From assembly GCF_030463535.1 (NCBI RefSeq), contig NC_132888.1:10182081-10246080 (forward strand): DNA of 64,000 nt, read 5' to 3'. Below the pieces are notes generated by a model. It was not told the DNA's origin. It worked only from the letters and a program-made list of their open reading frames with translations, and made no database searches. A program made the translations under genes and the position numbers. Shown piece after piece: positions 8,487 through 41,647 of this stretch; the first letter of the stretch is position 1, and each line of letters begins with the position of its first letter. The stretch is from Salminus brasiliensis (lineage: Eukaryota > Chordata > Actinopteri > Characiformes > Bryconidae).

Positions 8487-8579
8487 GTGGTGTCTGTGTT
8501 TACGTAAACAACGCGTGGTGTTCAGACGTAAAGACAGTTGAAAAACATTGTCTAGCGGACTTGGAACTGCTGATGGCAC

Positions 8580-10718
8580 GTGAGCTTTCCGACGAGGGAG
8601 AACAACTTACTCGACCAAGTCTACAGCAACGTGAGGGGGGGGGGCTACAGAGCGGTGCCTTGGCCACACTTCGGACAGTCCGACCACATCTCCGTGTTCC
8701 TCTACCCAGCATACAGACAGCTCCTCAAGCGGTCACTTCCAGTGAGTAAAACTGTTAAAGTATGGAATGAAGAAACTGATTCAGTGCTTCAGGACTGCTT
8801 TGACAGTACAAACTGGGATGTGTTTAGAACCGCTGCTGTGAGAGAGGATGGTTCTGTTGATCTAGAGGACTATGCTTCTGGGGTAACTAGCTACATCAGC
8901 AGCTGCATTGAAAACATTGTCCCTTCAAAGCGCTGCATAAAGTACCCCAACCAAAAACCATGGATAAATGGTGAAGTTCGGTCCATGCTACGTGCTCGCC
9001 AGACTGCATTTCTCTCTGGCAACGCTGATGACTACAAAAGGTCTAGATACGACCTGCGTAGATCTATCAGAGAAGCTAAGAGACAGTACAGGCTGAAGCT
9101 GGAGGGCTACTACACCACAGCAGACTCCCGGAGCATGTGGCGGGGACTGCAGCACATCACTAATCATCAACAAACAAGCGGGGCGCTCACAACCAGCCAC
9201 TCTGCACTACCTGATGAGCTGAATGAGTTCTATGCTCGTTTTGATGTCCTCAACCTTGGCCAACTGAAGGACATTGCGGCCAAGGAGAGCACACAGAACT
9301 CATTACTCATTGTAACACCAGTGGATGTGCGCAGGAACCTGATGAGAATAAACCCACGCAGAGCAGCAGGCCCAGACAACATCCCCGGGCGTGCGCTCAA
9401 GGTTTGTTCATCAGAATTGGCTGATGTGTTTGTAGACATATTCAATCTGTCACTCACACAAGCTTTTGTGCCATCCTGTTTCAAGATCACCACCATCGTG
9501 CCTCTCCCAAAGAAAAGTAATGTGAGCTGCCTAAATGACTATCGCCCTGTTGCACTCACTTCAATCGTGATGAAGTGCTTTGAGAGGATAGTCATGACTC
9601 ACATCCAGAAGACCATTCCCAACACTATAGACCCTCAACAGTTCGCGTACCGCCGGAACCGGTCCACAGACGATGCAGTCAACGCTGCTCTTCACAAAGC
9701 CCTCACACACCTGGAGGGCAAGGACACATATGTCAGAATGCTCTTTATTGATTACAGTTCAGCATTCAACACGGTCATCCCACACAGACTTTCAGAAAAG
9801 CTCCTCATCCTCGGACTGACACCAGCCCTCTGCAACTGGGTGCTGAATTTTCTAACAGACAGACCCCAGTCAGTCAGAGTGGGCAGCCGCACATCCAGCA
9901 CAAGAACAGTAAGCACAGGGGTCCCTCAAGGCTGTGTGCTGAGCCCCCTTCTGTACACGCTCTTCACATACGACTGTGTGGCCTCCCAGAACAACACTAG
10001 CATCATCAAATTTGCTGATGATACTACAGTCATTGGACTGATCACTGGTGGGGAAGAAACAGCGTACAGGAAGGAGGTGGCTGAGCTGGTGGCCTGGTGT
10101 CATTACAACAATCTTTCCTTGAATGCAGACAAGACCAAGGAAATGATTGTCGATCCAAGGAGGAAGCGAGAGCTGCACACACCCCTGTACATAGGGGAGA
10201 CTGAGGTGGAGAGGGTGAAAACCTTCAAATTCCTTGGCATTCACATCAGTGAGGATCTCAGCTGGTCCCACAACACTCAGATCATCATCAGGAAGTCCCA
10301 GCAGAGACTGTACTTTCTGAGAAGGCTGAGAAAATTTGGCATGCCAGCCAAAATTCTCAGCACCTTCTACAGGAGTATGATTGAGAGTGTTCTTACCAGC
10401 TCCATCATCGTCTGGTATGGAAACTCTACTGCCCAGGACAGAAAGGCTCTCCAGCGTGTGATCAAAACCGCACAGTCCATCTCAGGAGCAGCCTTCCCCT
10501 CACTGCAGAACATCTACCATAACAGAGTCACCAGGAGAGCCCACAACATAATCAGGGACAGTACACACCCCCAGCACACACTCTTCACACTTTTACCTTC
10601 AGGCAGACGCTACAGGAGCGTGAAGTCCAGGACCACAAGACTCACAAACAGTTTCTACTCACAGGCCATCAGGCTTGTGAACACCTCACGCACTGCCTCT
10701 CCAACCCTTCCTATCTGA
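8580..10718 (+). CDS. LINE reverse transcriptase, main open part of ORF2
   Basis: The frame has 712 codons. The end of the endonuclease comes first (GQSDHISVFL). The RT core follows: a PDNIPGR segment, FIDYSSAFNTVIPHRL, PQGCVLSPLLY and the catalytic FADDTTVIG box. The C-terminal LPSGRRYRSVKSR..RLTNSF region is found in L2/Rex-type fish LINEs. The annotated start is arbitrary, because the real ORF2 began upstream (about 7359) before the nested insertion and the deletion. The RT itself has no stop, which suggests a fairly young element. Confidence 0.85.
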   Translation: MSFPTRENNLLDQVYSNVRGGGYRAVPWPHFGQSDHISVFLYPAYRQLLKRSLPVSKTVKVWNEETDSVLQDCFDSTNWDVFRTAAVREDGSVDLEDYASGVTSYISSCIENIVPSKRCIKYPNQKPWINGEVRSMLRARQTAFLSGNADDYKRSRYDLRRSIREAKRQYRLKLEGYYTTADSRSMWRGLQHITNHQQTSGALTTSHSALPDELNEFYARFDVLNLGQLKDIAAKESTQNSLLIVTPVDVRRNLMRINPRRAAGPDNIPGRALKVCSSELADVFVDIFNLSLTQAFVPSCFKITTIVPLPKKSNVSCLNDYRPVALTSIVMKCFERIVMTHIQKTIPNTIDPQQFAYRRNRSTDDAVNAALHKALTHLEGKDTYVRMLFIDYSSAFNTVIPHRLSEKLLILGLTPALCNWVLNFLTDRPQSVRVGSRTSSTRTVSTGVPQGCVLSPLLYTLFTYDCVASQNNTSIIKFADDTTVIGLITGGEETAYRKEVAELVAWCHYNNLSLNADKTKEMIVDPRRKRELHTPLYIGETEVERVKTFKFLGIHISEDLSWSHNTQIIIRKSQQRLYFLRRLRKFGMPAKILSTFYRSMIESVLTSSIIVWYGNSTAQDRKALQRVIKTAQSISGAAFPSLQNIYHNRVTRRAHNIIRDSTHPQHTLFTLLPSGRRYRSVKSRTTRLTNSFYSQAIRLVNTSRTASPTLPI

Positions 10719-11112: not shown

Positions 11113-13294
11113 TAGCAAGTATCGGACATTTTTGTTAGCTCAACCAAGCCATATCCTGTCTGACCCAGCTCAAAACTTCGCTCGACAGCAACCCGTTAAC
11201 GGTTTGGGTGACCGGCAAGCTTAAACCTCCACTGGCTTGGTGGGAGAAAGGCCTTTAGCTAAACTTCCCCAAAGGGGGAGAGAGAGACATAGAGAGAGAT
11301 AGAGAGAGAGTTCAGGCTCGCATGCTCTTGAAGGGGTCGTGTTTTATAGTTTCTGAGCCACAACGCACACTAGCACAGAACTAGGCCTGCAACGAGGGTT
11401 TTAAAAGGGTTAAGTGTGTTTGTGCGTGTGGGCCCACCACTCAGTTTAATAGTGCAAACCATTGGTGCTGTTTAAGTTCATAATAACTTGAGTATTGCCT
11501 TTTTTACCAACTTATTGAAAAGCTCAGCTCCAATTCTAGGCTTAATTCCCTTCTGTGAGGGGTTGTAAATTAAAATCTTGCTGAAGTACATTTTGTAACA
11601 CCCTATTTATTTTATTTTAATTCCAGCTCCTATACTTCTAATTTTGGATATATTAACCCTAATCTCTTTATATACTAAATTTGTATGTTTAAAGTTTGCT
11701 ATATTATTTATAAAAAGGGATCAGTATGTACTTTTCACTAATTTGTTTGGAGGCACCACCATTGTATATTTTATTACCTTTATGTTCAGACTTGTCAGCA
11801 AATACACAGTAAAATTACTCATAATTAACTAAAGTAATCTACCGAACCCAGAGCACTCGTATAGCTTACAGTACTTGGCCAGTTCATTAATTTTAGCCCA
11901 GTGTAAGGGAGCTGCACCTGGAATGCTGAAGCATGCTTTACTGTCTGGCAGTATAATGGGCGTATCTGGGTTTGGTAAATACCAGGAGAATGTCCTCTTC
12001 TGGATGCCCAGTACGCGCCAGTACGCAGTACCGGAACATCTAGAGCACTAGAGAGTTTTTGCACCGGTCTGAGGCTGTTTTTCAGGGTCTGGGCCATTGC
12101 ATGTTACAGTGTACAAAAACACAAATCTTCACTACATGTCCAAATGTTTGTGAACACCCTGCTAATAAATGCATTCTACCACTTTAAGTTGCACCTATTG
12201 CTAACAAAGATGTGCAAATGCACACACACAGCTTGTCTAGTTCCTGTAGAGAAGTACTGCTAATAGAATAGGACTCTCTGGAGCAGATAAATTTATACCT
12301 ACTGGCACCATGACCGCCACACTGAATGAACAGGTGTCCCAATACTTTTGCCCATAATGTGTATACTTCCAACTTTCTTATTCATGAATATTTTCTGTCT
12401 GAATGTAATTATTTGACATTTTCAGCAGCACATTACAGGGCATCTTTGAGACCAGAGCTATTACTACTATTATTGCAAATGCAGGACAATAGTAATCAGT
12501 TCAGCCTTGTATTGTCTAACCTAATTATTCTCACAATGTGCTTCTGTGAGAGGCTCTCTTGTAGTGGAGGTTCCGTTTCACTGCTTGTTTTTTCAAGCTC
12601 ATCACAGCTGTGTCATACTGAAAGTAGTTAAATTAGGAAGGGGCAGGGGCTTGATCTACCAGCACATGTTATCACTGTTGGGGGGGGTTTGTTTTCTGTC
12701 CCTGTGCAGGGTGGGGTTCATCTTTCTTTTACTTCTTAACTAAATACCACAATTTGAAGAGAATCCTGTGTAAGCAGTAAAAAGGCTTACCGTGATGCAA
12801 GTTGCTGTTTGAGATTGACTAATTCTCTTGGGAGGAAGGTAAGATATTTTAAATGAAGCTATTGTTTGATCAAAATGAGCAACCCTGTACAATCCTGATA
12901 TATGAAGAGTGTAGATTCCAGTGGTAATGGTGTTGTATATTAGATCTGCAGCTTTTTTAACACCTATAAAAAGCCTGTGTTCTGCCGGTTGGTCTAAAGT
13001 GTTATTACAAACTTCTATTACCAAATATTTCCTGTAGTTACTGAGTAATATGCCTTAGTGTGTAATAAGCCTTAGAGAGTTAAGTGGTTGAATGTTATTG
13101 AAATTTTAACTAAATAAATGAAAAAATGCACATGTGAAATATGTAGTCACCAGTGCTTTTATTACAGTGCAATTGTAATATAATGGAAAATTCAATATAG
13201 TACATTTATTCATATGAATAAAAAAAATATAACATAAAAATAAATGTAACATCTCCCTTGTAGTCGGAAGATCAGTTGTTCTGCACTGGAGAAC
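11113..13294. other. Spacer upstream of gene A
   Basis: Contains the transposon fragment listed at 12139-12365, a GA-rich tract near 11275-11310 and AT-rich sequence. No exon with domain support was seen. The promoter of gene A must lie in the right part, but I cannot point to a convincing TATA box or CpG island. Confidence 0.5.
12139..12365 (+). mobile_element. Non-autonomous DNA transposon, family 1 copy a
   Basis: Starts GTCCAAATGTTTGTGAACACC and ends GGTGTCCCAATACTTTTG, which are imperfect inverted ends. The interior (AAGTTGCACCTATTGCT, GATGTGCAAATGCACACACA, CAGCTTGTCTAG, GGACTCTCTGGAGCAGATAAA) recurs at 23690-23830 and, inverted, at 46507-46996. I take it to be a Tc1/mariner-like derivative, with the class uncertain. 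Confidence 0.65.
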
Positions 13295-16200
13295 ATGGCA
13301 AGACTTCTGCTGCTGCATGTGATTTTTCAAGGTGCAGTGAGATTCCTTTATTTTCTTTATTGTATAATATTTATGCTCTGTATAAAATCAGATATGTTAA
13401 TCTCAGAATTTGTCTAATTAAAGGTGACTATTATATTTGTATAATTTGTATAATTGCTGATTATCTATCCATTCATCCATCCATTACTCTGTCTAGCTGA
13501 GGCCTTTAACATTTCAGCAATGTGGCTCTCTACCTTCCCTTTTGTTTTTCATGGCTGACTCATATTCTTACAGAGTCTTATATATAAGTCTTATAGACTT
13601 TTCATTTTGGGGGAATTTATGGTGCAAAAATGGTGCAAATGATTACCTTTATGCTACGCAGGCATCCTGTTTAGTGGTACCTGGACATGGTTAGTAAAAA
13701 TGCCAAGGAGCATTCAAGGACTTCAAGGTTCCTGCTTGGTTATACCATGTTCATTTGACTACTCATCATATCCACCTGTGAACCCTCATCGAGTGGTGTG
13801 GTATCAATATGTCAGTCGTGGATATCCTCTAGTGTATGATAACTGGGACCCTAGATCAGTGATTCCAAAGTTCAGAGGAAAAACCAGTTTATATGGGAGC
13901 CCATCCTATAGAGACTGCAGTCTGCTGATTGATGCCCTTGACATGTCCCACCATGGAGAGAAAGTTTATCCGTGGGTAGACCCAGAAAATGTTGGATGGC
14001 GCACTTATGAATTCTATGATGTTACCACTGTAATTCATGTAGAACGTAAGTGTTTTACTTTTCTTCCACAATGTTTTATCAGAATCTTAGTGATTATGTA
14101 TTTTTTATTGATGCAGTGCTAATGTTCATTATACCAGATTCAGTACAACGTCCCATCATTCAAATTATTGGAGGTATCAATATTGGGGACACCATCACTG
14201 TTCAGTGCAGCACATACCACACCTGTCCATACAGAACACCTACTCTGACTCTGAGTGGGATAGAAAGAAAAGAGGGAATAAATGACCGTGTGGAAAATAC
14301 ACATATCGGTGATGGCAAATATCAAATCACACTGAAACGGGATGGAGTTGTTCGGGCTGTCAGTCAGAGAGTTCAGTGTTCTGTCAAACATCCTGGTGGC
14401 CGTTCAGCCACAGCTACCGGAACACATACTGCAAAGTGTAAGTGCTGAAAAATAAATTGCATTTATTTTTTAAAAACAATGAATATTAAGGTGTGTTTTC
14501 TCATTTGCTTCTTAACAAATATCATTTTATCCAAAGGTCCCATTGATCCACCCCGGATCACTCCTGATTCCAACACAGAGTTTCTGGAGGGAGTGGAAAG
14601 AGAAATTGTTTGCTCTATAACATACACGTGCCCTCAGGACAGACCTTACATCACTTGGAATGGCGGACAGTTATCTGGTACCACAGCTTTAAACAAAGTC
14701 AGAGAAAAAATGGAAGCTAAATCAACGTTAAAGTTCACTGCAAAGGCCAGCGACAATGGAAAAGTCATTACCTGCCGGACAGAAATGAAAGGAAAAGACC
14801 AATCAGTCACAATTACTTTAAAAGTAAAACGTGAGTAAGAACTCCTTACACTTCTATTTACTGATTGTAGTAAGAAGATAAGAGGTTCGGCTGATGTTAG
14901 ACAATATTAGATTGTTGGTTAGATTGCACAAGGGACACATCTACCATTTATTTATAAGAACATTTATATGAAATGAGTTTATACTTAGTATTTAAATGGT
15001 TTTAAAGCTACTACTTTATACGTCTGCGCTCAATATGTGTTTTGCCAGGATACTAGCCGATATTGCACCAAATTAGCAACACTTTTATGTGGCTATGGGT
15101 TTCGTCTTCTATATCCAACTCAGTTTTTGCATAAATAGACAAGTAGTACAGTATTTGTCATCAAGTGACTTTCATAAATTAAAAGTAAAGTTTCTTGAGT
15201 AACCTGGGTAGAGGTTACTTGTTTCCTCATCTTGACCAGACACAACATGGATACCCAAACGTGTGCGTTCTGTGTTCTGAACACTTTTTGTATGATTTTC
15301 TTTGAAGGGTCAATGTTCTCCCGTGACTGGACCTTCTTCATGCCTAATACAATCAGAGGGGTCCGTGGCTCATGTGTAGTCATTCCCTGCAGTTTCGACT
15401 TTAAAACATCCCAGCCCAAAAATGTCAGGGTAAAATGGTACAAATTCTCTAGTACACAGTATCCTTTAGTGTTTGATCAATCAACATCGAATGTCATTGG
15501 AGAGTTCAGAGGGAAGACGAGCTTGTATGGAACTAACGAGGGAAACTGTAGCTTGAAGATCCAGCCACTTGAAAAGCAATACAACCAACAGAGACTGTAT
15601 CCCTGGATGGACCCTAAGCCTATTGAAACATACCACAGAGAAAATTACTTTGATATTACCATCGCCCTTGAGGTAACAGGTAAGGCTGATTCTTTCATTC
15701 CTTTTCTTATAACATATTGTCCTAAACCATGAGGATTTACATTTACATTTATATGTACTCATTGCATTCTACCACCAGAACATTAGTGAAATCAGGTACT
15801 GATTTAGAATAATCAGCACTTGATCACAGGTGCCACTCAGGCTCCTCCCAATGGTACTGGACCAGTGCACAATGCTGTGGTTCTAATTACCATATATTTG
15901 AGGCAGGAGGTGATGTAGCTGTTACACATTAAAACAAGGGTTTAAAGCAGGACTTTAAAGTTTGCATGTAAGAATATAATCATGCAAGATTGTTAAGTTT
16001 ATAAAGTGACACAACAAGAGGTTCGCTATGGCATGTCTTACACTGACACCAACTGGCTATAGTTTGAGTTGCACATGATCACATTAAATATCACCAGCAT
16101 TTTCTAACAACAAAAAGTATCCAGATTTCCAGTTGAAGATGTGAGGTGAGGTAAAGTTTTTGATTAAGGGTGATGTCCTGATGACTTCCCAAAGATTCCT

Positions 16201-19200
16201 GCCTATCCTGATAATTCTGAGATCCTCATAACCTCCCTCCCCAGTTAAAAATTGGGGTGTGATTTCAGAAGTCTTTAGCTAAGAGCTAATCTAATGTAAA
16301 AATGCAGTACTTTACTTCTAGTACTTCTGCTTATGAGTGTTTTTCATTTTTGAACTAGATCTTATTGAGAAACCACAACTGGATATTATTGGCATACCAA
16401 AGGTTGGAGAGCAGCTCACCTTATCCTGCAGTGTGATTCACACTTGTCCTCCAACACCCCCGACGCTGAGACTAAGTATCTCCCATGGAACTGAGCGTAT
16501 TACACACGCCCCCCAACATGAAGGAAAATGGAAGACAGTCAAGCAGATTACATGGAGTGTCAAGGAGGATGATACTTCTGCTTTCTGCACCGTTAGTTAC
16601 TCAGGTGGACAGACCTCCATGACTGAAGTCAGACTCAGCCCCTCATGTAAGTCTAAAATAGTCTGCATTGTTAGTTCTTGATTCAGGAAAGTTCAGCTTG
16701 TATGCCACAGTTTTTACACAGCCAGAGAGAACATTGTTTCACATAAATGTACTGCTTCAGATGAACCCCAGCAGGTTCACCCAGCAGGTAAAAGTGGCTC
16801 AGATCCAAGCTTTTCATCACATGTGACAGAGGTGTGTAGTCTGTGTGGCAGTGTAGACAGAAAAACACAGTGAATCAGATACATATCCAATACACAGCAA
16901 TGCGACTCAGTCTGAACAGACAGATTAGGATTTACGCAACTTTTATGTCCATTGTGACATTCGTCATAAATGTGCGCTAAGATGAAGGGAAAATGGGCAA
17001 CTGCAGTGAGGGAGCTTTTCAGTGTCGGGATATCGAGGTAACAGTCCTCATAAATATTTGGGAAATGCATGTTCCGAAGAAATGGCCGAAGCTTTTCTTT
17101 TTTGCACATTCAGCAGTTTAGGAGTGTGAATTGTTCAGACGAATGTTGAATAGCAGTCATATTAAAAACATTGTGTGAACAGGCAGAACCTGGTTTGATG
17201 AGGAAATCGAGTTTGGGACTCTTTATCTGTTGTTTGAATTTTGCATAATTGTCTTGATTGCCTTTTTCTCTGTTTTTTAATAGGTACTTTTCAGAAGCCT
17301 AAAATAAACACAACACAAGATGAAGTCATGGAAGGAATTGAGAATATCTTTACTTGCACTGTGCAACACAAATGTCAAAGACAGAAGCCATTGCTCACCT
17401 GGAAATTGGGAAACCTGGAAAGAATGCAAGAGCCTCCTTTAACACGAATGATTTCGACTGCTACCTGGGAGACGGTTTCCACATTAAAACTCAAAGCAGC
17501 CAGGGATGACCATGACAAGACATTGACCTGCACAGCTAAGTCTACAGAGGAAGAGTCTTCAGATTCTGTTGTTTTAAAAGTGAAGAGTGAGTTTATTTTC
17601 ACCTTTCAGACTGAAAATGCAACAAGGCAGGGCTGACTAACTGATCCTAACTGAGTAGTAATTTCTTTGTTTTGTTGAATAGTAAGGTCTGAAAAAATCT
17701 TCTAGCCCTACATTAATCAAATAATATCATATAACTGTTCTTGTCTTCTTTCCTCATTTTATCCATTGCCCTTTAAAAAGGAGGAATGTCTTCACTGGAT
17801 TGGACGTACTCCATGCCAAGCAAGGTCAAAGGTCTCAGAGGCTCTTGTCTAGTCATTCCCTGTAGCTTTGAGTTCAAAAGCACTCCTCCCAGTAACACCA
17901 TGGTCAAGTGGTATGAGTATTCCACTTCACAACACCCTTTAGTGTATGCTCAAAATGGTGCTAATGTCATTGGCAAGTTCTGGCAGAAAACCGAATTGTA
18001 TGGATCATCCAGCGAAGGAAATTGCAGTTTGAAGATCAATCCACTGTTAATGGAGCACAATGGAGAAAGACTGTATCCCTGGATGGATCAACAGCCAGTT
18101 GAAAAATTCCACAAAGTAAACCATTATGACAATTGTGTTGTACTCGAAGTAACAGGTAATTATAAGATAGATGCCACTTTATGTACCTCATTACATTAAC
18201 AATACAGTAGATGACTAATATGCCAAATTTCCAACTGCTTCCTTCTAACAGAACAAGCTGAAAAACCGAAACTCAGCATTACCGGTGTGCCCAGAGTGGG
18301 AGAGCAAATCACAGTGTCCTGTAGTGTATACCATACCTGTCCTTCAAGTCCTCCAACGCTGACAATGGGTAAAGCTCAAGACACTGACAGAACAGAACAC
18401 ACTCCAAAGCAGGATGGCTTCTGGGAGACCACCAGACATCACACGTTTAAGATTAAGGAAGACGACCAAACCATTACATGTAAAGCCACATTCCAAGGCT
18501 GGCAGACATCAGATGCTCAAATCAACCTCAATGCTCAATGTAAGTAATACAAAACATTAAATATAATAGCATGAGATGCAGACTTTGCCAGTGTTAATAC
18601 TGAGTGTAGATTCAGCTCTGGCAATGAGACATATCTTTGGCACTTTGATGAAGGGTTGGAGGTTTGGGATTGTAATGTCTCCCTCTGCTGGCCTCCCTCT
18701 CACCCGAGGCTTGGCTCCAGGCACACAGGTGAAGTTCATTTCTGGATTGCACCTTTGTTTGGTGTGCTGGTGTGGAGTCTCCATCCTGTGCTTGTGTTGC
18801 TAGTTTGGTTTTCTTGGTTTTTGACACCCTGCCTGTTTTTTGCTACTGGAATATGGATTTATCATTGATATACCAGCCTCCCCATGATTTAACCCCAGCC
18901 TGTTCTGATGTTGAGTTTTGCCTTAGTCCTAATAAAGAACAATTGCACATGCAGCCGGTCTCAACCACTCTGTTAGAGGGATATTGAGTAATAAGTTTTC
19001 TTTCTCGCTTGTCATGCCCTGAGAGTACGACGACCAGTTCCAACCACTTGAACTAAGTCTATAATCTAAGTCACTGTTACTCTAAATCATTGTCTTGATA
19101 ATATCTTATTAATTTGAGATACTAGCTCACTATTTTGAGAAGTTTTCTGATTATTTCCAGATGCTTTCACAGTATTTTAAGAAACCTCATAATTTTGCAA

Positions 19201-22200
19201 TTAAATCTCATAACTTTGACATTACATTTATTTTTTTAATGATGAGTAAAATATTAATATTGTGATTTTTGAAGTGCCAGGAATTGGATGAAAAATAATA
19301 CATATGACAGTTGTAGTTTTAAATGTTACTTTATTGATAACTTTCTATTAGGAAATAATGACTGATTCCTCTATTTCTGACAGTCATACTTTATAATGGC
19401 ATCTGTGCTACTCTTAAAGGGGGGGGGGCAACATTTCATAAGGGCACAACTTGTGGCACAAACTGTCTGATGCACATTAATTTTTTTTCTTATACTCTGA
19501 CTTTTCAGGTATCCATGAAGGTATAGTTATTGATCCAGACTTGGCCGATGTCACAGAGGGAGTTGCAACAAACTTCACCTGCAAGGTTTTCCATTCTTGC
19601 AGGAGGCAGCCTCCAACTATCACCTGGAACTATGAAGACATGCCAGAGACTGTGAAGATTAAAGAAAACAGAATTTCAGGCTGGATCACCTCTTCGAATG
19701 TATTATTTTTAGCTTCAATGGAGGACCAGGGAAAGAAGCTCATCTGTACTGCCAAGTTTCCTGATGAAGAGATTACAGCTTCTGTTGTGTTTCAGGTTCA
19801 AAGTGAGTATAATCAACATGATTAAAACCTATAGTGTGTCTATTTTGTTTGTGTAGTGTGTCTATAGGTTGTCTGCATTCCTTATTATATGTATCTATCT
19901 TTCTTATTCTCTTCCAGAGTATGTGCCCAAAATAGTGGATCCATTTGAGAATGACAGTATGTCTTTTTCTCTTTTTATCTGCATTTATTTCATTTATGAT
20001 TGAGAAAGTGTTTACTTAAATATTGTATAAGATGTCTAGCCCCCCCTCCTTTATTTTGTCTGTTTATTCCGATCTGTAGGTTAGACCTCTTTCACACAGT
20101 GTCCACAGACTGAAAGGTTTTTGACAATGGAGTGCTCAGGCCTTGCTGGGATTTATCCTTTTGAACTCCTTATTTGATGAGCTGGCAGTGAGACTGTAGG
20201 GTCACTATGAAGCTGTGAAAGTACACATGAGTTCATGGCTCTACATTGGTACAACTGTCTAACTGCCTGCTTGTCAGTAGTTTAATACCCTCCCTGCATG
20301 TGATAGAGGGTGTTCTAACCTGCAGATGTTAATAAACAGTAAACAATTCGAGGGAGTGTATCTTTAGCTCCACATAATCTGCATCTGGTAGCATCTCATA
20401 ATGTCACATCTCAGTAATATGATAGTATAGTGTATAAAAATAACAGTTCACACATAAAAGCATTGACTTAGGTGCTTTGTTGTCAGCTATGGCATAACCT
20501 ACATATTATATGACATACACTTTTGACATATGATTTAGTTAATATGCCATATTTGGCAATAAATATACTTCTGAAGTGACCTCCTATTACCCCGTTTCAG
20601 CCTTACACGTTTTCGAGGCGGATGTGGTGCCCAGGATCACTGCCTTGACCCGCTCGTGCGTAGTGATACCCTGCACTTTTGAGACCGGTAAAGAGGATGT
20701 CACTCGCCTTCGTGGTCTTTGGTACAACAGCAAAGGCGAATATGTTTACCACCCCGGACTGTCCAACGTTATGGACAACTTTAAAGGTCGCACAGAGCTT
20801 CTTGGGGAACTAGATGAGAAGAACTGCACTTTAGAGATTGACGACGTTCAAGCCCATGACAATGGGCCGTTTTGCTTCCATGCAGAAAAAGGCATGGACA
20901 AGTACAGGTTTAACCACAGCTGTGTGTTTATCGTCATGAAAGGTAAGAACCAACCTAGAACACTGGAAGGGCTTGTAGCTTGTACACGTGCTTCCAGAAC
21001 TCCCTGTTCATCTGTAATTGAAATACTTCAACCACAGGTTCCAGTAGGGTGTTTCAGACCTTAACCTTGCATTAATGAATGGAAATGCCTCTTTCTGAAT
21101 TCAGCAACTCCTAATAAACCAGTGATTTCGAGTCTTCCTGAGGAGCTGGAGCCAGGCAAGAAATTCACAATAAGCTGTTCTGTCACCCATACATGCTCCT
21201 CGCACCCCCCAACTATTACATGGAGTATTAAAACTGCCAAGGAAGTGGTGAGCCACATGGAGGGACGTGCAGGTCAGTGGAAAACAACCTCAACAGTTAC
21301 TTTCATGCCGACTGGCTATGAAGGCGAAGAAGACCTCATCTGCTCAGCCTCATTCAGGGGAGGAAAAAAACAAGAAAGTGCAATTTACCTGCCAATTATA
21401 AGTGAGTATTGAGGTATACTTCAGGTTATTTGAAGAAGATGCTCTAATGGGTCTCTTGCATGACTGAAAACTAATGAGCACACTCTTTTTAGGATACCAG
21501 GGGATGAGAATGGAGACTATAGGACCTTACATCCTGGCACCTTTGTTTTGTCTTTTGCTTCTATGTGCCATATTTACAGCTGGAGTGGTCATTTATAAGA
21601 GAAGAGCTAGCAGGTAAGTCTGTGTGTACACATGACTGTGTAAATGTTGTTACGCTCATGTTGTGGGTTTGACAATATTAACGACTTATTTGTCAGTTAT
21701 TGACTAATGATATTATTTGCCAAAATATAGGGTACCTTCAGATGGAGATACATTTGAGAAAAGGTAAGTATTTCTATTCCTTTTTTTTATTTCAGGTTGT
21801 TTATATTTTATGCATAGCAAGTTATTTTGAATTGATGTTTTTATTGTGAAATGAGATTGGGATGGTTTAAGCATACTGCCTGGAAGTTTTTACATTTGGC
21901 TGTTTGAGAACTATATTAAATTGTGCTGCACAGTGATATTATGTTCATTTGTTCCTTGGTTTTAAATAGGAGATCAGTATGGGCTCAATTTTCCAGGTTA
22001 GTTTAATTTGTCTTTTAAAATGCAGCAATGTATTTTTTTATTACACAAACAAACACATGATACACACTTGATAGAGACATAGAAACATTAATATTCTTGT
22101 GTCTTCCATCACTGTATACATCTTCTCTTAGTATGAATAAAGAATATTGCTGAATTTTGTATTCAATGGCAATTCTAACTGATGCTTTATGTGAATAAAA

Positions 22201-24491
22201 GGAGAACTGATGGAACTGCAAGCTGGCTAGCATCATCTAAAAACAAGTAAGTAACAAGTAAAATGCACTGGGAATAGAAGTCGACCACAGGTGATCGCAT
22301 TGTGAACTACTACTACAGCTACACTCTTAAAACTAGGGATGTTACACAGGGTTCTTTGAGCAATGCCAGAGAAGAATTTAAATTCCATAAAGCACCACGT
22401 TCCTGTTTTTAAAAAACCTTCAGTTGATAAAATGTTCCTCACGCATCTTTTTATGCAAAATGGGTTCTTCTGTGGCATCACCCAGAGCACCTTTAGTGTT
22501 TTTCCATAATTTGCATTCAACCCTAAAACTTCATTGAAAGCCAAAAACATAACACTATAAATATCATCCGCAGTGCACCACCAAGACCACCGAAACCTGA
22601 GAGGCAAGTTCTAAATGAAATTACTTGCTTAAATAATTAAGGAAACTCAATTTGTATCAAATGGTATATTTCATTTGTAATTATACTGTGATTAACTGTA
22701 AAGATAGCAGTTAGCCAACAGCACTATCATTTCTGTGTTTGTTTTTGTTTGTTTGTTTGTTTGTTTTTATGTTTTTTTTTGGAGTAGGCGCAGCATCTGG
22801 AGCCGCTTTTCCAGGTGATTAAGTTTAATGTACTTTTTGGGGAGCTCTTTCTTATATTTATCTGGAATCATTTCCACTGTATTTTATGATAATAATGATT
22901 ATCTTATTACTTTGTCATCACAGAAGAGGTCCAGATATGGCATACAAGTAAGTAATGAATAACTATACAAAGCAGTTTACAAATTACAAATTAATGTTTA
23001 TATCACAGTGGATTTCCTTTGTTGGGCTGATAGAAATGCAGACAAAAATATGCGTTTTATCTGAATTTCAGAATCTGCAAGAATAAGTACTGTAATGTTT
23101 TTTTATGAATATGAATATGAATATTTTTAACTTTCCTTAATATGATTACTTATCATTAAAACAGCACAATATAGTGGATATAAATTAATTACTTTTATAG
23201 TGAAAATAGAAACTTACAAAATAGACTTTTTTTAACAGAATCTTTTATGTCTTTCCCAGTGCACCGTCAAGGCCACCAAAACCTGGGAAAAGGTAAGCTT
23301 TCTATTAAATTAAGTGATTACCGAATCAGTACCACAGTGTTATATGTGTGCACTATCACATAATGATATTTTTAAGACTGTAGACTACAACACAATATTG
23401 TTCATTAAATGTTTTCTCTTGGGGAGTAGGCCCAGCATCTGGAGTCGCTTTTCCAGGTGACTTTCTTTCATGTTCTTGTCTGTTTATAATGCACTTTTTT
23501 CAAATCTTTATTTGGACTTAAAACTGCTAATATACTAATCATTTTAATATTATTTGGTAATCACAGAAGAGGTCCAGCCCCCAGTGCAGATATGATGGTG
23601 GAATACAAGTAAGTAATCTGCCAGTGTGGGACTTTTTGATATGGTGCCATATGTGGTAAAAATGGATGTGCACATTTTGTTTGTTTGAGTTTGTGAACAC
23701 CCTCTTAATGAATGAGTTCAGATACTTTAAGTTGCACCTATTGCTGACACAGATGTGCAAATGCACACACACACAGCCTGTCTAGTCCGATAGAATTGAG
23801 CAGATAAACGTGAACCTAGTGGCACATGCCTAAAGCCAGGTGCTGGCTAGGGGTATAAAGCCCTTAGCTTTGAAAAATGGTTCTCTGTCCAATATGTTTG
23901 TCCTGAGTTGGGAATGAGGTTTTGTTGCTAAATGCATTCAGATCCTCCCAGCCATGCTCCAAATTCTAATAGAAAGCATTCCTTTCCTGGACAGTAGAGC
24001 CAATTACCAAGATAAACTATTTTTAATACCCTTTATTTCAAAAGAAACAATTAATGATTAGGTGTTTGAAATCACTGGGCAAACACTCACTGAAATGCTT
24101 TTAATGTGGGTGACACATACATTGATACATACACTGATCACACATTGTCATAACTTATTGTCTTTATAGTGCCTTGTCTGGAACTGCAGAATACTCAAAC
24201 TCTTCCTACCCACCACCGAAAAGGTAGAGTACATTGCCGAATGAAGGGCAGAGGAAACATTATGCATATATAAAACAGTTTACAGTTTAATTCATTTATC
24301 TTAAAAACAATGTTTTAAGAATAGTAATACAAGAAATGTAATGCAGAATGCAAAATGTGGCATCTCTAGTTCTACTCTTTTGCTTGTGAGTGATAAGTGT
24401 TTTATTACTGTTTCACTGCAGGATATGTAGTAATTATGATGATGATCACATCAACACTTCTGATTTTAATTTTTACAGAAATGCATATTGA
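13295..24491 (+). CDS. Gene A: multi-V-set Siglec-like receptor, V-C2-C2 (x3)-V-C2-TM
   Basis: Twenty-five exons join in frame to 1381 residues. Signal: 13295-13331 plus the start of the next exon. Unit 1: V 13662-14045, C2 14138-14437, C2 14537-14830. Unit 2: V 15308-15679, C2 16359-16646, C2 17284-17586. Unit 3: V 17781-18155, C2 18252-18539, C2 19509-19802. Linker 19918-19956. Unit 4: V 20601-20942, C2 21105-21401. TM 21493-21613. Tail: 21731-21763, 21970-21996, 22202-22246, 22574-22603, 22788-22814, 22924-22947, 23260-23292, 23430-23456, 23567-23608, 24170-24223, 24422-24491. Ectodomain exons are phase 1-1 and tail exons phase 2-2. V domains have the Siglec pattern SC(L/V)VIPC...C(S/T)L with an upstream DW/TW...MP motif; C2 domains have CS..HTC as in Siglec domain 2. 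The TM helix is about residues 1215-1238, followed by KRR. Likely a cell-surface adhesion or signalling receptor. Nearest kin are MAG/Siglec-4-like proteins. Function unknown. Confidence 0.85.
13662..14830 (+). other. Gene A ectodomain unit 1 (V-C2-C2)
   Basis: The V domain (about residues 13-140) has GSCLVIPCSFDY, WYQYVSRGYPLVYD, FRGKTSLYG, RDCSLLI and an F-strand region EKVYPWVDPENVG, which lacks the Siglec arginine. The first C2 (141-240) has STYHTCPYRTPTL and the second (241-338) has SITYTCPQDRPYITW. The junction between the two C2 exons splits a TGT codon (T|GT), giving a Cys at the hinge. Confidence 0.85.
15308..17586 (+). other. Gene A ectodomain unit 2 (V-C2-C2)
   Basis: The V domain (about residues 339-462) has GSCVVIPCSFDF, WYKFSSTQYPLVFD, FRGKTSLYG, GNCSLKI and RLYPWMDPKP. 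C2 domains follow (463-558 with SVIHTCPPTPPTL; 559-659 with TVQHKCQRQKPLLTW). The hinge Cys from a split TGT is conserved at the C2-C2 junction. Upstream of the V exon an in-frame Met-started hydrophobic stretch runs from 15247 without a stop, so an alternative start cannot be excluded. Confidence 0.85.
17781..19802 (+). other. Gene A ectodomain unit 3 (V-C2-C2)
   Basis: The V domain (about residues 660-784) has LDWTYSMP, GSCLVIPCSFEF, WYEYSTSQHPLVYA, GNCSLKI and RLYPWMDQQP; it is the closest match to unit 2. C2 domains follow (785-880 with SVYHTCPSSPPTL; 881-978 with KVFHSCRRQPPTITW). The same split TGT hinge Cys is present. The intron between the two C2 exons is enlarged (18540-19508) by repeat-like sequence. 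Confidence 0.85.
19918..21401 (+). other. Gene A linker exon and unit 4 (V-C2)
   Basis: A 39-bp exon encodes a 13-residue linker (KYVPKIVDPFEND). A divergent V domain follows (about residues 992-1105): RSCVVIPCTFETG, LWYNSKGEYVYHP, FKGRTELLGELDEKNCTL, and F strand GPFCFHAEKG with His where Siglecs have Arg. Then comes one C2 (1106-1204; SVTHTCSSHPPTITW). The second C2 seen in units 1-3 is missing. This unit looks like the original membrane-proximal Siglec head to which the triplets were added. Confidence 0.8.
22322..22515. mobile_element. MITE, family 2 (gene A intron)
   Basis: Imperfectly palindromic sequence with GGTTCTTTGAGCAATGCCAG at the left and GTGGCATCACCCAGAGCACC at the right. Members of the same family lie at 35318-35765, 36820-36978 and 57755-57955. 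Confidence 0.55.
23690..24005 (+). mobile_element. Non-autonomous DNA transposon, family 1 copy b (gene A intron)
   Basis: Matches copy a (12139-12365) through AAGTTGCACCTATTGCTGAC, GATGTGCAAATGCACACACA and GAGCAGATAAACGTGAACC. It then continues into GGTATAAAGCCC and an interior shared, inverted, with 46507-46996. The right end looks truncated. Confidence 0.6.
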
Positions 24492-24650: not shown

Positions 24651-24656
24651 AATAAA
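24651..24656 (+). promoter_or_regulatory. Candidate polyadenylation signal of gene A
   Basis: AATAAA lies 160 bases after the stop codon at 24489-24491, in an AT-rich 3' UTR. Another AATAAA-rich site at about 24928-24936 is an alternative. Confidence 0.5.
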
Positions 24657-25957: not shown

Positions 25958-28900
25958 TTATCTTATTATGATTTGAGAATATTCAGTCCTCTCTTTCTCA
26001 TCAGAACTGGAATCATCTCCATCATCAGTGAAACGTGGTTTATGCTGTTGTGTCACAGTGAAGGTGACCTTGCTGTAATTCACTTCCTCTTCCTCCTCAC
26101 TACTGTCTGAGTCCCAGTTTATGTTTGAAAAATCTGGCTTTCGTGCACAAACACTGGATACATTCTCATAATCGTCATTATCTTTTTGCACCACCTGTAA
26201 GAAAAGTGTCTAATCTCAGATTTCAGGCAGTCTGGATATTTCCAAAGATCACACCAAGCCCCCATTTTAACCTTTCAACAGTTTCACTAAGAAATAAATG
26301 TGTGTTTGTGGATCCTCATGTAGCAACTTTTTGCTGTTGTTTTTTTTTTTTTTTTTTTACATTTAAGTCAACCTGCTGGATGCCACGGTCCCAGGGTCAT
26401 TCCAGGCATGAACTAACAAGTATTGCAGCAATTCAACAAAAATATAATTAATAGAGTATGTAGAACATGACATTGTTTGATGTGAATATCTAAAGACCCA
26501 CATCATGTCCATACATCTACAGATTTTCTCAGTTTTTGCACAGTTTTGCACAAGGGCGCAAGGGTGGGATTTGCAAAATGTTTAAGACTGCGATTTGATT
26601 GCAATAAAAGGTTCACTGTGCAGTTACAATGCCTGTTGATTGAATGTTTTTAGACGTTTATGCTGTTCTATGCAGCAATAAATGTGGCAACAATATTGGT
26701 TTGAGAAACTCCAAGATGCTTAATACTCATAAAGGGTAGAAATAAAGAACTTGCCTGGCTGTGTAGTACTGCTCCTTCTTTTGCTTGAATGTCATGATTA
26801 TTTGGAGAGGAAACACAGCTGACTGAAGCTACCACAGCCAGAATACTAACTAATTAACATTTAAAAATTGCACTTACAAGTTAACTAATTCTCTTAAAAT
26901 TACTCATACCAAATTAACACAGTTAATCTAGACACACTGTAATGTCCAGTTAAACTGGAGGCAGTCGTCATACTTAAAAGGTTTTAATTAAGTTTAATAT
27001 TTTTGTAGATGATTTTGTGGAAGCTTCATTTAACTAACTGAAACATTACAAATCCACATTTTATTAAGATAATGTGTGAGAGAATTAATTGAACATACCT
27101 TTGTGTTTTGGTTATTTTTTGAAACTACAGCGTACACTGTACAGTCATCACTGCTGTTTACACTAGAACAAAAACAAAACAGTCCATGAATACAAGGAAA
27201 AATTATGATAACATGAATATGCATGTATATATGTATATGTAGCAAAATCTGCATTGTTCTAATTTCCCATATTTTAGCCAAAGATCATTTATTTTACTCC
27301 AATCATGGATATAGGGACTGCATTAATAATAACATTACATGTTGGATAATTAAATTCTGGTGAAATTTGGTTAGTTTTTCTATTTTAAAATATTGCAATA
27401 TACATTGCAGAATTAGTTTTTCTAAAGGTGGCAGTAAGGGCTCCACAGAGAGGCTTACAAACTTTGTTTAAACTTCGTAGAACATAAAAATAACATGTAC
27501 AGGGTGGGTTCTGGCATGGCTACACCCTCAACTTTCTCTGGCCACTGAGGGTTTGGGGCTTGTGGTTGGAATTGTGGTTGTTGATGGTGTAGCATAGTGG
27601 CTAACACTGCCTCTCCTGTGGCAGCTTTTGATTTCTCGGCTAGACAAAACAAAACACCATGCTACACCATTTAGTCATTAGGCGAGACTCATAACTCAAC
27701 ATTCTCCTGCCTGTGTGACATGTAATTCAAAGGTAAGTCACACCAAATACCTAAGTATAAATGGTGCTTGAGGGTGGATTTCAGAGACTCGGTGATGGTG
27801 ATTTACGACTCCTATGCACTGTGGAACCCTTACCCTTACTATAGTAAAATATAGTAAAATATAGAAGATGGAATTAGAACTTCATCAACATCACAGAATT
27901 TATCAGTGTGATCAATGCATCATTGATCAATGACAACTGGTCAATGTATCATTTTTTACATTAATGTACCCGCATTCAATCGCAGGATGGTGGCAACATG
28001 GTGCAGGTATTGACATGCAGGCACACACTCATTTGATATAAGAGTGCATCTCAAAAAAAGCAAAATACAGTGAAAAACTTTATGTGTATTCATTCATTTT
28101 ATTCAAAAAGATAAACTCATATTTATATGTATTACATTTAAATACATATGTCAAGTCTGTTTTTTTATGTTGACACTGTTTGATCAGTAATTTATAAAAA
28201 TGTTATATACTACAAAAAAGGCATGGAAAAGTGTCACTTCACATGTAATAAATATTTATGTTATTCTCATTTTTTGAGCTAGTATAGCTATTCTTCTTTT
28301 GAATAACTACTTACTCATAAGTGATTATCTTACCCTTTGATTATTACCCTTTGATTATTCCCCCTTGATCTTACCCTGGATTATTGTTGTCCTTGTTCTG
28401 CAGATTAGCATAATTCATAGTGGACATAGCTGAAGTCTCCTGTGTGTGAGAAAGCATTTCCTTTAAAATGTTTTCCTGCAAAGTCAGATTACAAAGCTTA
28501 GTCTTGTATTAAATGTAAATAGGTATAGTTATTTGTAGTGGGTGTAGTGGGCCTTTTGCCGGGGTAGAAGAGAGAATGCATCTGAAGTTTTGCTAGTTTT
28601 TAAGTCCTTTATTAAACCACACCAAATAAGTAATTGAAACACAGCTAGGGTACAGCGCTCAGGCTGTTCTTGTCTCTCAAAACAACCTTGAGGCTATATC
28701 TCATATTACTTGGACTTAATTTTTCACGGCGGGGCACACATAAAACTCCTTAAAGCTAGCCATACAAGGAACCATAGTGGTTATTTTCTGATATCACTAC
28801 GAGAGCCCTTTGTAGCAACTTTATTGTTATTCAAGACCTAGCAACGTAACCACAACATCGACAAACTGCTAGTGTGTTTGCGGGTATTTTGAAGTCTGTT

Positions 28901-34900: not shown

Positions 34901-37900
34901 CAAGGAAACAAACCAAAAACTAACAAAAGAAAAAAAAAACAGCCCAAGCTAACACACTGCAAACTGACATGAACATGAAACCACATGATCACATTCAAGT
35001 CTAGACAAGGGAATGCTTATACAGAGACTAACAAGGGACACCTGGGAATAACAAGGGGGCGTGGTTACATAGAAGGCACAGGTGGGAACACTGTTCATTA
35101 GTGAACAGGCGGGGCTAACAAACAAACTTGAAAGCACATGGTTACGCAAAACAGAGGTAGGCATGACAGGACGGGCGGACATGACAGATACCCTTTATTG
35201 TAGTGGTAACTCAGACTTACATAAAGTAGGACACTTAAGCAAGTTATTTAAGACAAAGACAAAATATATTCTTATTTTGAATCATCTGAATCCACAAATG
35301 CATCAGCTATGTACAGTCCAGTCCTAAAAATAATGGTGCTTTGAGTGATGCCAAGGAAGAATTTTTGGTTTCATAAAGAAACTATCGATAGCAGGGTTGT
35401 GGGTTCGATTCCTGGGCTTGGCAAGCTGCCACTGTTGGGCCCTTGAGCAAGGCCCTTTACCCTCTCTGCTCCCCAGGCACTGGAGTTGGCTGCCCACCGC
35501 TCTCGGTGTGTGTGTAATCACTGCCCCTAGTTCACTAGTGTGTGTGTGTTCACTACCACAGATGGGTTAAATGCGGAGGACACATTTCGCTGTACAGTGA
35601 CAAATACGTGCACCCTTTATTTTATTTTATTTTATTAAACATGTTTGAAATAGTGATGTGTGAGTGTAAAAACCCTTTAAATTGATCAAGACCCTTTTTG
35701 TCATATTTTCTAATGCATCACTCAAGGAACCACTTCAAGCACCTTTATGTTGTTACTGTACATCTATACCTACGTTCCACTGTCAGAGTGATATTCCTGG
35801 TCTGGCAGTCATCTGTGCTTCTAGCTGGACGACACAAGAACTTTCTCCCATGATCCTCCCAGATCAAATTTAAGTTCAGCTGAGTGATTTTTTTCCCTGA
35901 TCCAGTGTTTGTCACGTTGGAAACCATTTCAGGAATGACATCAAGCCATTCAGGATAATCTGAACAGAGCTCTGATGTTGAGCACTGAATAGACACTGTG
36001 TCACCCTCTTTGACTGTCCTCTTTTCCAGTGGCTCAATATGGATCTTGCAAGGGTTGTCTACAGAAACAACCCAAAAACAGCACAGAAAGTATCTACCAA
36101 GACCCCAGACTCACATTAAGGCCTTCTCCATCACAAGTATTCAGACTAAGTTGAAAGGAAATACATGACTTACCTTTTATTGTGAGGTTCACATAATCAC
36201 TTATAAATTTTAACGTTCCTGATGTCTGTATAGTTCTGAAGCTGTAATTTCCTCCGTCATGTATTTGCAGATCATTAATTCTTAGTGTGCACAATCCTGG
36301 TTTACTATTTGCATTGCCCTGGTATTGCACTCTGTTGGAGTACTCAGAAGCCTGTGGACGATCTGGTTTGTTACTATATACAATGGTCCCATTAAATTGT
36401 TTTTCATTGCTATCATACACAGGATCTTTAAACCAGAGCAGATACATTTCATTCGAAGAATCTGTGTCATATGTGCATTTGATGGTGACACATGATCCCT
36501 CCATTACTGAAGTAGTTTTCAAGTCCACATTAGGCTTTTCGTGTGCTAGCAGTAAACTGCATAAACACAAGGTGACTAAAGGAGAAAAGCAGAAGCATTA
36601 ACATTAATGACACTTATAATTAAATCATGTTACACAGGAGAATGTACATTCAGAGTCTTGCCCCATTGGTGTAGCATGGTGGGTTTGCCTGGTCAGTGAA
36701 TTGAATCCTACTCCACTATGGGGTGTTGTTACCCATTATGCTACATCAACTACAGTCAATAATGCAAAATCACACATTGTTAAATATAATTATTACTGTA
36801 CAGTGTACACTTCTAATGATAAAGACGCTTGAAATGATTCTTTGAGAGATGCCATAAAAGGACCACTTCTGGTTCTATAAAGAACTATGTTCTCCACACT
36901 CACATGTTGCTTTATTGTGCCAAAAGTGGTTTTTCAAAGGCATCGTTCAAAGAACCATTTGAAGCACCTTTACTTTTAGTAGGGGTTAATGTAGTCTAAA
37001 AGGGGCCACAGTAAAAATGGACATTCCTTGGTTGCACCTTACTCTTACACTGCTTGGCTGATGTTCACAAATTTTAAAACAAAAGTCTCACCAGCAGAGG
37101 TGAAATATGTAATGTTTGAAGTGTTTACCATTTTTGCATACATTACAGTAATCAAAGATATATTATTTCAGCAAAATAAAATGATCTGATTTGACCCTAA
37201 GTTTAAGTACAGCAATACAGACTGTAAACTGGCTATAACTATAACAGAAAACATCATGGTTACTACTACAAATCCATGTAAATTAGATGCGAACTTTAAC
37301 ATTACCATGAGGAACTACAAAAACCTGAATTTAAACATATTTTGAGAGATGTAACCAACAAAACTGCTTAAAAACATCTAACACTTAACCACTCTGGAAT
37401 CTGAGGACTGTCAACCACTTTTGAGGTAGACATGTCATTGACATTTCAAGTATTGCATATACTTAAAAAACATGGGGCCTACTATTTTTACCATCACCAA
37501 CCATTCTTAATAAGACATTTCACCTAAATCCCACTTACATTACACAGTTTTGACAAGGATCATGACATCCAAGTCTCTGTATTTTCTATATTTGTTCAAT
37601 TTATGGGGACAATGGAATTGATTATTTTAAAAGCATGTCTGTAAACGGTGGTTTTGAAACACTTCATCATTCTGACATAGATTTCTTTTGGATTCTTCTC
37701 AACAACAAATCTAAGAGCTGTCTTAAGAATAGATTGGTGAATGATTCAAAAGTGTTACATAAGCTTATAGCCAGCATAAACTTAGCGCCGTTAATGCGAG
37801 AGCAGGACAAATGTCATTAATCAGATTTTTTTAATTAGCTCTAAACAGTTGCTGATATATTGTGAAAAAATATGGATTATTACGTCAGTGACTGCATTGG

Positions 37901-40498: not shown

Positions 40499-41635
40499 TC
40501 ACTGTGAAACCCCTGTTGCCACTGCTATGATCTTATCAGCATCAGCACTCATGTCATCAATCGCAGAGTTTATGGCCTGCAGCATCACTGTGAAGGAGCG
40601 GCTGACTGATCTGGCGTGGCGTGGCATAGCCAGCTCCACTAGCTTTGTGGTGGCTGTGCTGGTGTCTTTCTCAGCCACAGAAAGCCTCCTCTTCACTTCG
40701 CTTTTGCTAATCTCCACAGACAGGAGGCAGGTTCGCAGTCCCTTTAGCTTGGTTGGATCCATGCCTCTCTGCCGCGCCAACCTCTCCACAGACTCATCAT
40801 CCAGGCAAAGAGAGATTTGGGCCTTTGTTAGAATCCGTACAGCAATGCTGGCATCCACCATGGAAGCCACCAGGGGCACAGGAATAGCAGAAACTCCAGC
40901 AGAGAGTGAAGCTGCTGCCCAGCCTAGGGCTTTGAAGGCTTCCTTCTTCTTGGCCACCAAGGTGCTGGAAAACGTAGGTAAAGCCAGCAGAAGAGCATGC
41001 GCTCTGATTTCTGGAAGGTCACCTAGCATCACCTCTAATAGCATTAGGAACTCCAGCTTTTCCAAAGCTGTAGGACACACAAGCAAAACTTTGGGCTGAG
41101 ACACTCCTTCTGCTTTCAATACCTCCAAGCTGGCCTTCTTTTTGGCCTCCAAGGTTTTTTCTGTGTCCTTATCTGACGCCAGCAAGGCAAAATACACATC
41201 TTTCTGCAATGACCGTGCCTCTCTCCAGACAGCGACCATGTTTGAACTTGAGTTTTGTGTGAAGGTCATGATAATAGAATTGTACCGTATGATTTTATAT
41301 CGCTCCAAGTAATTCTCAGGGTCAAAAGGAGTGTTGCTGGGAATTGCAGGCAAATCCCACAGGCGGAAATCTGGATGCTTTGGATTCGGGAAAACAGCCA
41401 GTTCATCCGGAGCTGCAGAAGAAGGACAGAGAGCAGCTCCTTCATTCCCAACACCAAGCCCTCTGAGAGAGTTAATAAAGGCTGCTTTCTCACCTCCCCT
41501 CTCCCCTACCAGGGCAATGTTTATACGACTTATCAACATGTCTTCAACCGCATCCTTAATGTCTGAAATGTTGTTCTTCTCAATAGACTCTTTTAGGCTC
41601 TCCAGGAGATTAAGACTTTTAATCACTTCAGCCAT
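40499..41635 (-). CDS. Gene C: IRG-like protein with degenerate GTPase motifs
   Basis: A single coding exon of 378 codons, the usual gene structure of immunity-related GTPases. The acceptor TTTAG lies at 41646-41645, just before the ATG. Family features are an N-terminal helical segment, a P-loop region (IALVGERGGEKA, residues 39-50), the switch-like WDLPAIP, the LGDLPEIRAHALLLALP block and a C-terminal helical part with GVSAIPVPLVASMVDASIA. The P-loop breaks the GxxxxGK(S/T) rule, with Glu for the second Gly and Ala for Ser/Thr. DxPG reads DLPA, and the expected (T/N)KxD is SDKD at best. I therefore infer a quasi-GTPase, as for IRGQ, that may not bind GTP normally. IRG proteins act on vacuoles and membranes in cell-autonomous immunity. 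Its GC content is higher than that of its neighbours. Confidence 0.85.
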   Translation of the reverse strand: MAEVIKSLNLLESLKESIEKNNISDIKDAVEDMLISRINIALVGERGGEKAAFINSLRGLGVGNEGAALCPSSAAPDELAVFPNPKHPDFRLWDLPAIPSNTPFDPENYLERYKIIRYNSIIMTFTQNSSSNMVAVWREARSLQKDVYFALLASDKDTEKTLEAKKKASLEVLKAEGVSQPKVLLVCPTALEKLEFLMLLEVMLGDLPEIRAHALLLALPTFSSTLVAKKKEAFKALGWAAASLSAGVSAIPVPLVASMVDASIAVRILTKAQISLCLDDESVERLARQRGMDPTKLKGLRTCLLSVEISKSEVKRRLSVAEKDTSTATTKLVELAMPRHARSVSRSFTVMLQAINSAIDDMSADADKIIAVATGVSQ

Positions 41636-41647
41636 GTCTGTGACCTA

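Follow-up and report, generated by a model that had tools for sequence, protein, structure and literature searches.

Can a single Siglec-like gene carry four V-set domains, and if so, where did these domains come from and what do they bind? The question is raised by a 64-kb stretch of the Salminus brasiliensis genome (C11:10182081-10246080, hereafter the window; the genome comprises 1.07 Gb in 103 contigs). A sequence-only reading of the window had described one receptor with four V-set domains, formed by duplication of whole heads of one V and two C2 domains. Our analysis leads us to favour, with a probability of about 0.68, a single 1381-residue inhibitory receptor, Siglec-like and of the type I transmembrane class, whose 11 immunoglobulin (Ig) domains would be of mixed origin.

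Read exon by exon, 25 exons on the plus strand (13295-24491) join in frame into 1381 codons followed by TGA, as had been proposed, in the order leader, three V-C2-C2 units, a 13-residue linker, V, C2, transmembrane segment and tail (Table 1). All eleven Ig exons have an AG acceptor and a GT donor, are in phase 1-1, and stand in the order first described, V-C2-C2 three times and then V-C2; the formula (V-C2-C2)3-V-C2 omits only the extra 39-nucleotide exon between C3b and V4. The 11 tail exons all start in phase 2. Of 24 introns 23 are GT-AG, the intron after the tail exon at 22574-22603 being GC-AG, and an AATAAA at 24651 lies 160 bases beyond the stop codon. Scans for leader exons (12.0-24.6 kb) and transmembrane exons (13.3-21.5 kb) found no convincing example of either between the units, in agreement with the earlier description, the only candidates there being a weak leader-like frame at 19161 and a transmembrane-like stretch at 18709/18721. 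An assembly artefact, which the sequence-only reading had named as a way in which it could fail, was ruled out: the array is not assembly slippage because its units are too diverged (V2 and V3 share 67% nucleotide identity) and it lies within a continuous 40.8-Mb contig, with no N across the 166 kb examined.

The Ig domains are related to those of known Siglecs, with matches much stronger than chance would give. The best PDB match of each V exon by phmmer was sialoadhesin (Siglec-1) for V1 (1.6e-16), V3 (1.5e-10) and V4 (4.7e-11) and MAG (Siglec-4) for V2 (2e-9). The seven C2 exons, taken together as a profile, matched the second domain of MAG best (1.6e-9); C4a alone matched VCAM-1 (2.2e-4) ahead of MAG (4.3e-3). 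In a Pfam comparison that took nine of the 11 Ig exons, leaving out C2a and C2b, the V-set cut-off of 26 was reached by V1 (26.1), V2 and V3 and missed by V4 (22.8); one of the five C2 exons given reached a cut-off (C4a, 'ig'), and C1a had no match at 0.01. In Siglecs the V domain has two cysteines in the B strand and one in the E strand, and the next C2 domain has one in its B-C loop. Judged by residues alone, this pattern is present in all four V-C2 pairs, each V exon having the two B-strand cysteines and the one in the E strand; the loop cysteine is not confined to these pairs, being found in all seven C2 exons, the four that follow a V and the other three. C1b, C2b and C3b each have an additional cysteine as their first residue, and the cysteine count is 10 in each of units 1 and 2 and 11 in unit 3.

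The cytoplasmic tail includes proline-rich exons with PPRPPKP and PSRPPKP; PxxPxK is an SH3-ligand type of motif. A three-exon cassette (proline-rich, SIWSRFS and RRGP; window 22574-23608) is present in two copies that share DNA across an intron (22769-22934 vs 23409-23577, 71%). VEYNAL, at residue 1338, is the sole tail match to the immunoreceptor tyrosine-based inhibitory motif (ITIM), for which we used the signature [I/V/L/S]xYxx[L/V] as printed in an excerpt of PMC7226832. Through this motif the predicted receptor is most likely inhibitory.

We used trees of the V exons (21 rows, with a long-branch warning from the program) and of the C2 exons (23 of 24 rows, a frame-shifted upstream exon being left out) to examine the origin of the heads. 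V1 to V3, three V domains of an upstream copy and four V domains on chromosome C1, all with a YPW motif, form one clade (96/99), in which V2 and V3 are sisters (97/96). V4 is placed with the V domains of four V-C2 genes that neighbour the window (86/88, a value under the starred level). Its identity to the V domain of the first neighbour is 51% (1.6e-35), compared with 24-29% for V1 to V3. In the C2 tree C1b, C2b and C3b fall together (94/93) and C2a and C3a pair weakly (82/52). For V2-V3 the nonsynonymous divergence (dN) is 0.28 against a saturated synonymous divergence (dS) of 2.1, which indicates that both have been kept; dS is saturated for C2a-C3a and C2b-C3b, and no value was computed. 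It therefore looks as if V-C2-C2 heads were duplicated as blocks within the gene in units 1 to 3 only, so that the original proposal of head duplication stands for these units and fails for V4, which looks to be of neighbour type and not a fourth copy of the head.

The four V-C2 genes lie about 14-55 kb to the left of the window (C11:10126794, 10146340, 10159941 and 10168451), and in two of them a leader, V, C2 and transmembrane segment with some tail exons were traced by eye. They have in common with the window gene a V4-like V domain with an FCF F strand and the tail motifs IWSR (second and third neighbours) and SGTA and NYDDD (first neighbour), whereas their leader-V-C2-transmembrane plan, where traced, and their F-strand arginine (FCFRAE in all four) set them apart. 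The window tail exon IWSRFSR resembles IWSRMSR of the second neighbour (E 0.048), and the exons SGTA..PPPK (7e-4) and NYDDD (0.009) resemble exons of the first. The E-values refer to a 13-kb search space in which these two neighbours were pooled, and the list is otherwise taken up by weaker hits at chance level. Since V4 groups with the neighbours' V domains and some tail exons are alike, the gene looks like a fusion.

We consider the following course of events the most likely. In a Siglec cluster beside a MAG-like gene, a head of the YPW-marked subfamily would have come to stand before a short V-C2 receptor of neighbour type, whose V domain, now V4, would once have had its own leader. The head would then have been tandemly duplicated; because the exons are in phase 1-1, heads can be added without breaking the frame. 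All exons would be transcribed as one mRNA, and a repeated or membrane-bound ligand might cluster the receptor and so elicit an inhibitory signal through the ITIM, the many heads providing avidity and reach. The two halves are complementary, the array having a leader and no anchor, and the V4 half having an anchor and tail, with no leader found.

Several observations weigh against this reading. The gene is known here from the genomic DNA of one species alone. C4a has no supported grouping with the neighbours' C2 domains in the C2 tree, and the window transmembrane exon shows no clear similarity to that of the neighbour, so that it is V4 and small tail exons that speak for fusion; a W-type tail exon of the first neighbour itself reaches only E 15 against the window, and the long-branch warning covers V4. 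AlphaFold2, given only the four window V domains, modelled V3 with a mean predicted local distance difference test (pLDDT) score of 33. Finally, a second copy of the 5' end of the gene lies 0.6-4.5 kb to the left of the window (C11:10177618-10181452; L016, L017), with its leader 17.8 kb before the window leader, and this second leader means that the true 5' end of the gene is not fixed. Comparison of V1 and C1a with the upstream copies gave dN/dS of 1.0-4.3 with few synonymous changes (six pairs), and constraint on head 1 is thus not established.

The upstream copy comprises a leader, three V-C2a pairs and one C2b-type exon, and 10176628-10178903 is 91.3% identical to window 12319-14528. These upstream exons are perhaps decayed, or perhaps supply extra heads. 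If the latter, the gene would start at C11:10177618, the three V-C2 pairs would splice onto V1 to give up to seven V domains, and the window leader would be an alternative start. The identical leader fits such a larger gene, as do the three V and three C2 exons, which have no stops and whose junctions fit phase 1 by eye; moreover, the DNA separating the upstream copy from the window gene yielded no other Ig exon; it does contain two hydrophobic acceptor-led stretches. The leader and first V-C2 exons are also 97.5% identical (721 sites) vs 93.7% for the surrounding DNA (1475 sites; p 7e-5), but this scarcity of silent change in the leader and V1-C1a exons points to gene conversion no less than to selection. 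Since the single C2b-type exon has a one-base frame change relative to its window counterpart and would have to be skipped, some 14 kb intervene, including a reverse transcriptase frame (window 8574-10715, plus strand; RVT_1 1.5e-33), and the window leader is intact, we regard the larger gene as improbable. The same low standing applies to a receptor that is still growing, with as many as seven V heads, of which three stem from the recent upstream duplication, able to splice onto one anchor and ITIM tail; sialic acid reading would have been dropped for a new ligand site on the YPW face, with avidity or variety gained by adding heads.

Somewhat less probable again is that the 25 exons belong to two genes, a soluble leader-(V-C2-C2)x3 protein ending by read-through past C3b and a separate two-Ig receptor of V4, C4a and a transmembrane segment. 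The resemblance of V4 and some tail exons to the adjacent V-C2 genes, two of which were traced as leader-V-C2-transmembrane genes, is what such a pair would show, and the C3b frame does meet a stop shortly past its donor. However, the 12.0-24.6 kb scan gave V4 no convincing leader exon, the leader of the first neighbour has no convincing match near V4, and one phase is shared by the donor of C3b, the linker exon and the acceptor of V4, which is as a single receptor would have it.

As to the ligand, we aligned 21 V exons from the S. brasiliensis genome with MAFFT and inspected the site of the F-strand arginine essential to sialic acid recognition. The arginine is kept in nine (the MAG-like gene, FRADLGG; the four V-C2 neighbours; four others) and replaced by the YPW motif in ten (V1, V2, V3, the three upstream copies and the four on C1); the remaining two are V4, with histidine, and a minus-strand window exon, with lysine. 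None of the four V domains of the window gene has it, V1 to V3 reading YPW.D and V4 FHAE. At this site V1 has proline by MAFFT and tryptophan in a pairwise HMMER alignment with MAG, arginine in neither, and HMMER aligns the V4 histidine with the arginine of sialoadhesin FRFE. Excerpts of PMC7226832 report conservation, from mammals to the fish studied, of the CD22 residue R120 and the MAG residue R118, a point in which MAG differs from the window gene. As no V domain carries the essential arginine, the multivalent sialic acid binding implied by the sequence-only reading is unlikely; the four V domains probably recognise a non-sialic ligand, presumably a protein. We consider the gene Siglec-like by sequence and, because the arginine is lacking, set apart from the sialic-acid-binding Siglecs. 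That it might yet be a multivalent sialic-acid lectin is highly improbable. The best matches to sialoadhesin and MAG would allow it, and sialic-acid binding by a Siglec with two V domains has a precedent, an excerpt of PMC6288428 reporting it for chimpanzee Siglec-12; but arginine is present in none of the V domains of the window gene vs nine of the 21 V exons compared, neighbours and MAG-like gene included.

Among known systems, MAG and sialoadhesin provide the best structural matches of the V exons, MAG also that of the C2 profile, and both share the cysteine pattern. MAG has one V domain, with R118, followed by four C2 domains. The window gene, with another domain order and no arginine, does not belong with it. 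Repeated domain pairs also characterise DICP, a fish receptor family. Sialoadhesin differs in having one V and 16 C2 domains, according to an excerpt of PMC6829431. A figure legend of that paper gives human Siglec-XII (SIGLEC12) two V-set domains that both lack the critical arginine and describes it as not binding sialic acid; an excerpt of PMC6288428 likewise counts two V-set domains. Siglec-XII thus resembles the window gene in having more than one V-set domain, without the arginine, and differs in that these are two and not four, with no V-C2-C2 repeat or subfamily fusion mentioned in those excerpts. The premise that Siglecs have a single N-terminal V-set domain therefore has a published exception, and does not describe the four V exons of this in-frame model. 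More than one V domain is precedented, because Siglec-XII has two, and in that respect the receptor is not of an undescribed kind; what is new is the set of four V domains, apparently of mixed origin. Among the matches listed, no title or abstract opening names a Siglec from fish that has two or more V-set domains, most subscription journals being outside the coverage. If the gene is transcribed as modelled, the Siglec scaffold would be shown to allow heads to be added one after another and recognition to be turned from sialic acid to something else, and there would be a YPW subfamily with a ligand of its own; this offers a route to asking what arginine-less Siglecs, human Siglec-XII included, recognise.

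Table 1. Exons of the Siglec-like window gene (window coordinates)
Feature	Position	Strand	Remarks
Leader exon	13295..13331	+	MARLLLLHVIFQ, continuing into V1 exon; identical 13-residue leader in upstream copy
V1 exon	13662..14045	+	F strand KVYPWVDP (no Arg)
C2 exon C1a	14138..14437	+	B-C loop Cys (HTC)
C2 exon C1b	14537..14830	+	
V2 exon	15308..15679	+	F strand RLYPWMDP (no Arg)
C2 exon C2a	16359..16646	+	
C2 exon C2b	17284..17586	+	
V3 exon	17781..18155	+	F strand RLYPWMDQ (no Arg)
C2 exon C3a	18252..18539	+	
C2 exon C3b	19509..19802	+	
Linker exon	19918..19956	+	13 residues, KYVPKIVDPFEND
V4 exon	20601..20942	+	Neighbour-type V domain; F strand FCFHAE (His for Arg)
C2 exon C4a	21105..21401	+	
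Transmembrane exon	21493..21613	+	
Cytoplasmic tail	21731..24491	+	11 small exons; PPRPPKP and PSRPPKP exons; ITIM VEYNAL; TGA 24489-24491

The V exon of the MAG-like gene is on the minus strand at C11:10250326, about 4 kb to the right of the window. The four Siglec-like V exons on C1 that bear the YPW motif lie at 94.13-94.23 Mb (L020-L025, L028); their genes resemble the window gene in having YPW in place of the arginine, but apparently have a single V exon apiece, after which come a C2 exon and further Ig-like frames. A genome census with V3 alone as query gave at least 19 V matches, and other multi-V genes may exist elsewhere. Within the window there are two more pairs of Siglec-like V and C2 exons on the minus strand, at 51431-53647, where the V exon has lysine for the F-strand arginine (YYQFKLQ), and at 35778-36510. 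Tail-like frames with tyrosine motifs, noted by eye at 45695-46057 and about 26000-26200, both on the minus strand, perhaps belong to minus-strand Siglec-like genes. A 381-residue open frame at 40502-41644 (minus strand) falls in the family of interferon-inducible GTPases (Pfam IIGP, 1.3e-37).

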